Part shown: piece by piece, positions 1,612 to 16,132 of the stretch | Layout: each line of letters starts with the position of its first letter | Numbering within the stretch: the first letter of the stretch is position 1 | From: a bacterium HR28 | Lineage (GTDB): Bacteria > Chloroflexota > Chloroflexia > Thermomicrobiales > Thermomicrobiaceae | Reading direction: 5' to 3' | Assembly (NCBI GenBank): GCA_002898255.1 | Contig: BEIE01000001.1 | Location: 1,302,001 to 1,366,000, forward strand | Length of the DNA stretch: 64,000 nucleotides | Translations under genes and position numbers: made by a program | The notes under the pieces: model-generated | Told to the model about the DNA's origin: nothing | The model's database searches: none | Seen by the model: only the letters and a program-made list of their open reading frames with translations

Positions 1612-1945
1612 GTGGCGCACCTCCGAACAATTGCAACTCATCGTATTGGTTTCTTGAGGCTCGTCATCGAAAACCCCCGCCCTCAGGCCTGAGGACGGGG
1701 GTTCACCCGCGGTACCACCCCAGTTGGCACGGGACGTTGGCGTCCCGTGCCCACTTTCGGTCGCTGTAACGGGCGACTCCCGTCTGCGCCTACTCTGGTG
1801 TCACTCCGGTTCGGGCAGCGGCTCGGGAAGGATCTTCCGTCGCGAGAATCCCATCCGGCTCACACCGTCCCGGACTCGCTGAGGGTGACTCGCGACGTAC
1901 TCGTTTCCGTCTTCGCCCTTGCCGTGTTCATTTGTCATCGTTCAA
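1612..1945 (-). ncRNA. T-box leader (riboswitch) of ileS
   Basis: Read on the minus strand, the leader contains GGGTGGTACCGCG at 1708-1720, matching the T-box antiterminator consensus. It is followed directly by a GC-rich terminator hairpin. Upstream lies a long structured stem I region with an ATC triplet at 1831-1833 that could be the isoleucine specifier. The specifier is a guess from position and identity. T-box RNAs sense uncharged cognate tRNA and control synthetase expression, so induction of ileS under isoleucine starvation is expected. The 5' boundary is approximate. Confidence 0.9.
1667..1703 (-). terminator. Terminator hairpin of the ileS T-box
   Basis: On the minus strand AACCCCCGTCCTCAGG pairs with CCTGAGGGCGGGGGTT (one wobble) and is followed by TTTTCG. 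It lies 3' of the T-box sequence and competes with the antiterminator, as expected for a transcriptional T-box. The U-tract is short (four). Confidence 0.85.
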
Positions 1946-13974: not shown

Positions 13975-15330
13975 ATGCAAGTTGAGACCTGGAATGCGGC
14001 GGAGTTGGTGCAGAAGGACATTGCGCACCATCTGCATCCATTGACGAACCTGCACCAGCTCCGCCGTGAGGGACCACTGGTTCTCGTCCGAGGGGAAGGG
14101 GTATGGGTCTGGGACGCCGAGGGGCGTCGATACCTCGACGGATTCGCAGGGTTATGGAACGTGAACGTGGGCCATGGCCGTCGAGAGCTGGCCGAGGCTG
14201 CACGGGCACAGATGGAGCGGGTCGCGTTCGTCCCGACCTTCTTTGGATTGGCGAGTCCGCCGACGATCGAGCTTGCAGCCCGTCTGGCTGACCTCTTCCC
14301 CGAGCCGCTGAACCACTTCCAGTTCACCTCTGGTGGCGCAGAATCGAACGAGACAGCGATCAAGATCGCGCGCTATTACTGGTGGCTGAAAGGACAACCC
14401 GATCGCATCAAGATTCTTTCGCGCCGGATGGCTTATCACGGGATCGCAATGGGGGCCTTGTCCGCGACCGGTGTGCCGTCGTATTGGGAAGGGTTCGGGC
14501 CACGGCCACCCGGATTTATCCATTTAACGGCTCCATACAAGTATCGCTTCGGGGAAGGGCTCTCTGACGAGGAGTTTGTGGCACGTCTCGTGCAAGAACT
14601 CGAGGAGACGATTCAGCGTGAGGGGCCGGAGACGATCGCTGCGTTCATCGGGGAGCCGGTCCAGGGTGCGGGCGGAGTAGTGGTTCCACCCGACGGGTAC
14701 TGGCCAGCGATCGCGAGTGTTCTGCGGCGGTACGGTATCTTGCTCATACTTGACGAGGTGATCACTGGTTTTGGACGTACGGGAACGCTCTTTGGGATGC
14801 AGCAGTATGGGATCGTGCCGGATATCGTGACCTTCGCCAAGGGCATCACGTCCGGATATCTACCACTGGGCGGGGTAGGAGTAAGCGACGAAATTGCGGA
14901 CACGTTAGCGAGTGCTGATCGCGTCTTTATGCATGGCTTCACCTATTCGGGGCATCCGGTGTCTTGTGCCGTCGCGCTCCGTAACCTCGATATCTTGCTC
15001 GCGGAGCGGCTGTGGGAGAACGCCGCGGAGGCCGGGGCTTATCTCCTGGGAGCGTTGCGCCAACTCGAGGAACGTCCGTACGTCGGTGAGGTGCGTGGTA
15101 AGGGACTAATGCTCCTCATTGAGGTCGTCCAGGACAAGGCCACAAAGGAGAAGTACCCACCAGAGTTTAAGCTTGGTGCCAAGCTAGAGGCCGCAACACG
15201 ACGCCGCGGGGTCATCGTCCGCTGCACGCCAGATGGAATCATCATGGCACCGCCGCTCACCATTTCTCGCGAAGAGTGTGACGTCCTCATCGAGGCCGTG
15301 GCAGGGGCGTTGGCCGACGTCCTTGAGTAA
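13975..15330 (+). CDS. Class III PLP-dependent aminotransferase (omega-transaminase type)
   Basis: A 451-residue aminotransferase. Recognisable elements are YLDGFAGLWNVNVGHGR near the N-terminus, TSGGAESNETAIKIAR for phosphate binding, ILDEVITGFGRTG with the PLP-pyridine Asp near residue 258, and FAKGITSGYLPLGG with the Schiff-base Lys near residue 289. Class III members use beta-alanine, putrescine, GABA or similar amino donors; its beta-alanine:pyruvate-like signature is only suggestive. ATG 13975 follows GAGGAGGGC. It is monocistronic, divergent from greA, with a strong terminator downstream. Confidence 0.93.
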   Translation: MQVETWNAAELVQKDIAHHLHPLTNLHQLRREGPLVLVRGEGVWVWDAEGRRYLDGFAGLWNVNVGHGRRELAEAARAQMERVAFVPTFFGLASPPTIELAARLADLFPEPLNHFQFTSGGAESNETAIKIARYYWWLKGQPDRIKILSRRMAYHGIAMGALSATGVPSYWEGFGPRPPGFIHLTAPYKYRFGEGLSDEEFVARLVQELEETIQREGPETIAAFIGEPVQGAGGVVVPPDGYWPAIASVLRRYGILLILDEVITGFGRTGTLFGMQQYGIVPDIVTFAKGITSGYLPLGGVGVSDEIADTLASADRVFMHGFTYSGHPVSCAVALRNLDILLAERLWENAAEAGAYLLGALRQLEERPYVGEVRGKGLMLLIEVVQDKATKEKYPPEFKLGAKLEAATRRRGVIVRCTPDGIIMAPPLTISREECDVLIEAVAGALADVLE

Positions 15331-15378
15331 GGCGCGCCCGGCAATCGTGCTGGTTCGCGGGAAAGATGAGACACTCAG

Positions 15379-15411
15379 GGGGAGCGAGCAGAAACTCGCT
15401 CCCCTCATTTT
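15379..15411 (+). terminator. Intrinsic terminator of the aminotransferase gene
   Basis: Perfect 10-bp stem GGGGAGCGAG/CTCGCTCCCC with a 6-nt loop, followed by TCATTTTTT. Confidence 0.9.
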
Positions 15412-15416
15412 TTCCC

Positions 15417-15602: not shown

Positions 15603-15631
15603 TTGACACCCTAGCCAGATCTGAGTATAAT
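15603..15631 (+). promoter_or_regulatory. Perfect consensus sigma-70 promoter
   Basis: TTGACA (15603-15608), exactly 17 bp, TATAAT (15626-15631). It is the only promoter in the window with two perfect hexamers. Transcription should begin near 15638, leaving an approximately 100-nt leader before the orphan gene at 15739. Confidence 0.85.
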
Positions 15632-15738
15632 CAGCGTTTGCGTCTCATCCGGTGTGCACACCAACGAGCATGGCACGTGAGCTTCCGGAAGCGGCTGCGT
15701 GTTTCTGTGGCAGTGGTGTGAAGTGCCGAGGAGGTGGT

Positions 15739-16083
15739 ATGCGAGCTGTTCTGGGGCGAGTCCCGATTGAACTCGGGATTGTGGCGGCCGAGCGGGCGTT
15801 CCGGATGGCTCTCGGGCGGGAGGTTCGGTTCGTCACCGCGAATCGGCGAGAGGCTGCTGACCGTATTCTCCAAGCCACCTGGGAGGTCTATAGCAAGTAC
15901 ATCCAAGACTACGAGTGGAGCAATGGGCGACACCCGAGCCGGACACGCGAGGAACGGGAACGCCTGATCCACGCCGTCACCGCGTTTTTCCTTGGTGTCG
16001 CCGTGTTGGAGTCGCTCTACGAAATGGACGTCCTTGCTCGCTGGCTCGTTGGAGAGTTGGGCTTCGAGGAACTAAGCGCCTAA
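15739..16083 (+). CDS. Hypothetical protein, 114 aa, strongly expressed single gene
   Basis: I do not recognise this family. The protein starts [20 protein letters not shown] and appears mostly helical, with a charged middle ([12 protein letters not shown]) and a C-terminal hydrophobic stretch ([17 protein letters not shown]) too short and polar for a confident TM helix. No signal peptide or metal-binding motif was seen. ATG 15739 overlaps GGAGGTGGT immediately upstream. An in-frame upstream ATG at 15670 would add a Cys-containing segment but lacks a ribosome binding site. It is an independent unit with a perfect consensus promoter and its own terminator, implying constitutive, high-level transcription. 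Confidence 0.75.
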
Positions 16084-16098
16084 TCAGACGGAGGCTAG

Positions 16099-16132
16099 GA
16101 GCGTGGCGGGAGTCTCCCGCCACGCTCTTTTC
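16099..16132 (+). terminator. Intrinsic terminator after the 114-aa gene
   Basis: 13-bp perfect stem GAGCGTGGCGGGA/TCCCGCCACGCTC with a 3-nt loop, followed by TTTTCG. Confidence 0.9.

Follow-up and report, generated by a model that had tools for sequence, protein, structure and literature searches.

Here we report that a short gene of 114 codons (15739..16083, plus strand, with the stop codon TAA at 16081-16083), situated in a Thermomicrobium genome within the 64,000-nucleotide stretch of DNA that was analysed as a whole (C1:1302001-1366000, hereafter the window), belongs, on the evidence of sequence comparison, to a family of protein genes that occurs only in Thermomicrobium among the genomes searched, and that it is preceded by the only promoter in the window that agrees with the housekeeping consensus at every position. 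The account that we tentatively prefer, and to which we attach clearly less than even confidence, is that the gene encodes a constitutively produced, stoichiometric, helical accessory protein specific to the genus.

Judged by its substitution pattern, this orphan gene is a real protein gene under purifying selection, because dN/dS (NG86) is 0.22 between the window and its closest relative, genome G003, and 0.13 between genomes G006 and G001; four wider pairs gave values of 0.26-0.34, at a dS above 1. An in-frame N-terminal extension with the string CFCGSG, which we take to be SEC-C-like, was rejected, as it lies in the leader, shows no Shine-Dalgarno sequence by eye and is not kept in G003. 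A search with the single sequence found the gene in six of 61 genomes, all among the seven Thermomicrobium genomes and broken in one of them; the seventh, G004, in which no orphan gene was found, is 54% complete and did not yield moaC either. The profile search of the class gave matches in 7 of 158 genomes at E 0.1, of which six, all from Thermomicrobium, were kept, and the remaining one (G111; E 0.038, 28 residues, an internal stop) was taken as chance and dropped. In a sample of the phylum, which overlaps with that of the class and for which at most 11 candidates per genome were scored, the profile matched 4 of 400 genomes at E 0.01, again all Thermomicrobium. Coding, under selection and present in one lineage, the gene is by these sequence searches a taxonomically restricted gene within the sampled genomes.

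It is also, to go by protein identities, a gene that evolves much faster than its neighbours. The orphan protein is 84% identical between the window and G003, versus 97% for the aminotransferase encoded upstream and 95% for MoaC encoded downstream, and 50% identical between the window and G001, versus 91% and 85%, respectively. The gene is split across two contig ends in genome G002. Genome G005 has a copy of 41-42% identity from which the start codon is gone and in which three single-base length differences and one stop are found; its flanking aminotransferase and MoaC share 97% and 94% identity with those of the window. At least the lineage of G005 can therefore do without the function. Moreover, the promoter of the broken copy is no longer recognisable when read by eye, so that gene and promoter seem to have decayed together.

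The promoter consists of the -35 hexamer TTGACA (15603-15608, plus strand), as read in the sequence, and the -10 hexamer TATAAT (15626-15631, plus strand), which lies 17 nt beyond it. This is a 12/12 match to the sigma-70/sigma-A pattern, that is, TTGACA and TATAAT spaced 16-18 nt apart ahead of a gene. The earlier note had called it the only fully consensus promoter in the window, and the scan bears this out: it is the sole 12/12 site on both strands at spacings of 15-19, and 60 first-order Markov sequences generated as a control contained no perfect promoter. Per window, the mean number of sites in these sequences was 0.15 with one mismatch and 3.6 with two, compared with 0 and 3 in the actual window. 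The rarity extends to the whole genome (3.12 Mb, 8 contigs), in which TTGACA-N16..18-TATAAT occurs twice and a reversed control pattern never; when one mismatch was tolerated at a 17-nt spacer, 19 sites including that of the orphan gene were found, versus one for the control. Across the seven Thermomicrobium genomes there are four perfect promoters (two in the source genome G000, one in G003 and one in G005), two of which, namely one of the pair in G000 and the only one in G003, precede the orphan gene. The perfect promoter of G005 precedes an ORF that reads by eye like a molybdopterin oxidoreductase. The second one of the source genome (C4:46939, 18-nt spacer; locus L013, about 1501-2160) lies ahead of an ORF. 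Two near-consensus promoters stand back to back at G000:C2:564062-564197, and one of them faces an ORF that by eye is zinc alcohol dehydrogenase-like. A literature search on promoters and transcription start sites in Thermomicrobium found no paper.

When the window is aligned with G003, the hexamers are identical at 12 of 12 positions and the spacer at 6 of 17; identity amounts to 182 of 256 aligned bases in the intergenic DNA upstream and to 297 of 342 in the coding region. Among the five intact orthologues, the promoter matches the consensus at 12 positions of 12 in the window and G003, 11 in G006, 9 in G001 and 8 in G002, the last three with 17-nt spacers (strings counted by eye). A promoter is thus kept at this site, with its perfection confined to the closest pair. 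A perfect promoter could alternatively be a repressed or conditional one whose operator lies inside the spacer or close to it, and the protein would then be made in certain conditions only. Among the matches listed, several near-consensus promoters of relatives do carry a GAAC-N4-GTTC box in the spacer, presumably LexA-like, and the spacers of the orphan gene contain palindromes in the window (CAGATCTG) and in G003 (CTCAT-N5-ATGAG). However, these two palindromes are unlike in sequence, the arms in the other three orthologues are just 2-3, random 17-mers reach an arm of 4 or more in 17% of cases and of 5 or more in 3.4%, and no LexA-like box is seen by eye in the spacer of the orphan gene. We consider such conditional control unlikely. 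With regard to other promoters, the position of GAAC-N4-GTTC between the -35 and -10 elements (G000:C3:284417 and relatives, among the matches listed) suggests SOS-type control of consensus promoters.

The orphan gene looks monocistronic, since the class-III aminotransferase gene upstream, which ends at 15330, has its own terminator (15378..15413, plus strand; an 11-bp stem at 15378-15405, then T6). Downstream lie moaC and, on the minus strand, a tRNA thiouridylase gene that we take to be mnmA. Behind the orphan gene itself is an intrinsic-terminator-like hairpin (16099..16131, plus strand) with a 13-bp GC-rich stem, a 3-nt loop and TTTT. In G003, G006 and G001 the gene likewise has a hairpin behind it, of partly different sequence, and the 3' hairpin of the decayed G005 copy still folds. 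Of the strong terminator that had been ascribed to the gene, the stable, strongly folding hairpin is present; the T tract has only four residues, so that a stricter terminator scan did not list it.

Transcription probably starts near 15638, and the leader, counted from the -10 hexamer to the start codon, is 107 nt long (15632..15738, plus strand). It contains a Shine-Dalgarno sequence, GAGGAGG (15728..15734, plus strand), 4 nt before the ATG at 15739, and a GA-rich element stands ahead of the start codon in all five aligned rows. The leader had been described as 100 nt and longer than needed. The leaders of the five intact orthologues are 103-120 nt long, that of G003 being the same as in the window; length by itself is no evidence of regulation, and the leader showed neither a supported conserved structure nor an Rfam match. 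That it nevertheless has a function of its own and controls the gene as a riboswitch, thermometer or attenuator would fit the lengths kept among the orthologues and a structure predicted with RNAalifold, whose pair counts exceed those of shuffled and slid versions, although this score says little because the structure had itself been predicted from these five sequences. Its consensus energy is just -1.8 kcal/mol and its covariation term is unfavourable, the accessibility of the Shine-Dalgarno sequence falls inside the range of 100 shuffles at both 37 and 65 C in all five orthologues, the only two matches in Rfam at E 5 or below (0.58 and 2.6) are both at the 3' end of the gene, and the 5' 60 nt of the leader are identical to G003 at 29 of 60 positions without gaps. 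A regulatory leader is, in our judgement, very unlikely here. A T-box leader was found elsewhere in the window (1688-1922, minus strand; Rfam RF00230, 106 bits).

The chromosomal position of the gene can be followed beyond the genus, as moaC was found in 18 of 21 genomes of the family, 12 of these outside Thermomicrobium. Directly upstream of moaC there is an ORF with a transporter signature in 11 of the 12 non-Thermomicrobium loci (L046-L057), and the twelfth (L052) is on a contig that starts within what reads as the same transporter gene; two of these ORFs were scanned and both were EamA. One gene further upstream there is a close homologue of the aminotransferase in the six non-genus genomes in which it and moaC were located close together on a single contig. 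In these six the gap between the aminotransferase gene and moaC measures 1040-1185 nt, compared with 820-867 nt in four Thermomicrobium genomes. Within Thermomicrobium as a whole, the listed relatives of EamA (none in the incomplete G004) do not exceed 34% identity, so that the EamA orthologue of this slot appears to have been lost in the genus.

A gene between the aminotransferase gene and moaC, the place of EamA in sister genera, might be a remnant or a re-framed piece of the ancestral transporter gene. However, an EamA profile made from 11 sister-genus proteins found nothing when six Thermomicrobium loci were searched in all six frames (best E 2.1), and the best single tblastn match among those listed (E 0.018, 22% identical) is on the opposite strand, in G003. 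These comparisons disfavour descent from the transporter, which we regard as extremely improbable. The orphan may have been newly born in the genus or may have come from an unsampled source. It has also to be considered that it was a mobile or defence gene, such as a phage gene, an antitoxin or an anti-defence protein, that has since been fixed. This would account for a gene that is small, fast-evolving, lineage-specific and dispensable, but no relative was found in viral contigs and phages and nothing better than E 0.2 on plasmids, the best match in PHROGs was at E 0.037 (one member of six), PADLOC gave none, and wherever the flanks could be seen the neighbours are constantly the aminotransferase gene and moaC, with no toxin. 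We hold such an origin to be decidedly unlikely.

The description of the product as an orphan protein of unknown family holds, no family, RNA or fold match being significant, and the homology searches that the earlier note had named as a check found no known structural family that would explain it. There was no match to the orphan family in Pfam, NCBIfam, PHROGs or PADLOC at cut-off or at E 0.001, and the best match by sequence in the PDB was a cullin at E 1.3. Among the candidates set aside, CaMBD was the best family match (E 0.0055, 17.1 bits versus a cut-off of 25, one member of six), and the profile matches to Adipogenin, Rrn6, VbhA, TetR_C_33, FCD and Csx11 were each confined to one member of six. 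The GntR FCD effector domain was likewise rejected (best profile E 0.056 in one of six members; a GntR-annotated plasmid protein at E 0.7).

Two AlphaFold models, one with the window protein first and the other with the G001 orthologue first, both built from the same six sequences, have pLDDT values of 79.7 and 80.1. Both place helices at residues 10-25 and 36-55 and begin a third at 67 or 70; their C-terminal parts do not agree. The predicted product is thus a small, helical protein whose core is made of three helices. Fold matches reach Z 7.0 at most, which is the background level for helical bundles; those to 2rld, 1yo7 and PadR recur with both models. The matches to polyprenyl synthase, dCTPase/MazG-like and CorA folds were discarded (Foldseek E 0.5 or worse), as were 2a3q and CorA chains, which are in both fold lists but at a query TM-score of at most 0.44 and an rmsd of at least 7 A, and viral structures, with a best E of 0.25. 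Another rejected match, 3kav (PA2107), came second with one model (Z 6.5, 72 aligned, 2.1 A) and was absent from the best 50 of the other; the literature search on PA2107 gave nothing related by title. The regulator PadR recurs weakly (Z 4.9 and 5.4), so that a ligand-binding role is conceivable. The conserved parts of the protein are an N-terminal GRVP.ELG, a 13-residue stretch in helix 3 and a final EELSA, with which all five rows that reach the C-terminus end. Several charged residues are invariant in four sequences, and the protein may therefore have a catalytic or ligand site.

At least with regard to codon usage, the orphan gene is only moderately adapted: its codon adaptation of 0.701, versus a window mean of 0.667, ranks sixth of 43 against the 42 window ORFs, is similar to that of its two neighbours (0.712 and 0.717) and is lower than that of the gene for ribosomal protein L34 (0.758). 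The suggestion of the earlier note that the gene is likely among the most strongly transcribed ones of the window may hold, high expression being plausible. T5 N25 is a near-consensus promoter, and strong promoters can be escape-limited or repressed. T5 N25 is reported to be limited by its escape rate (PMC12464699). An RNA-seq table for T. roseum has been published (Table S1 of PMC6776052).

In the account that we prefer, the housekeeping sigma-A polymerase would read the orphan gene from its near-ideal promoter and would stop at the hairpin of the gene itself, which would make it a separate transcription unit from which the protein is produced constitutively and in quantity. The product would act stoichiometrically and would most likely be no enzyme but a helical oligomer or adaptor, which would bind a partner protein through the conserved third helix and the invariant C-terminal tail EELSA. 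An accessory role is suggested by the fast evolution of the gene, its loss in one species and its position in the slot of a lost EamA gene, and action as an oligomer or adaptor is a guess made from the helical model and the expected abundance. Against this account stand the facts that the perfection of the promoter is not genus-wide, that codon adaptation is moderate, that the fold matches are at background, that several charged residues are invariant and that the G005 copy keeps a 3' hairpin that folds. A further-reaching proposal, which we think rather unlikely, is that the gene was born within Thermomicrobium, filled the slot of the lost transporter and gained the best housekeeping promoter of the genome, and that it founded a new, abundant helical family with a cell-wide stoichiometric role, for instance in protection against heat or stress. 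If the protein is abundant, it would be a clear example of a young gene, confined to one lineage, under the best housekeeping promoter of its genome, and with the arrangement in sister genera, the intact orthologues and the decayed copy all at hand, one could ask of what benefit such a restricted gene is to a thermophile. Otherwise, it would be a warning that a perfect consensus fails to predict expression in the phylum Chloroflexota.

Among known systems, the orphan gene resembles the EamA/DMT transporter gene of sister genera in occupying the same slot, from aminotransferase to moaC; that gene, however, encodes a membrane transporter of more than 300 residues without significant sequence similarity to the orphan. 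The four-helix-bundle proteins of the S23/Avd type are similarly small and helical, and 2rld was matched with one model at Z 5.5 (82 aligned, 3.6 A) and with the other at Z 6.3 (82 aligned, 3.3 A); chain 8ub7_E of a DGR reverse-transcriptase complex, which we take to be Avd, was matched with a single model (Z 6.7, 80 aligned, 3.7 A). The orphan differs from them in that its Z-scores are at background (5.5-6.7), its calculated pI is 4.6-6.7 and its neighbours are the aminotransferase gene and moaC; no match to the S23/Avd family profile, presumably PF05635/TIGR02436, was listed up to E 10 in the Pfam and NCBIfam searches. The orphan gene is also like the bacterial ORFans, being single-copy, short, fast-evolving, under purifying selection, decayed in one relative and, among the genomes searched, without homologues beyond the genus. 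Unlike them, it has an unusually good housekeeping-type promoter and sits in what appears to be the slot of a lost ancestral gene.
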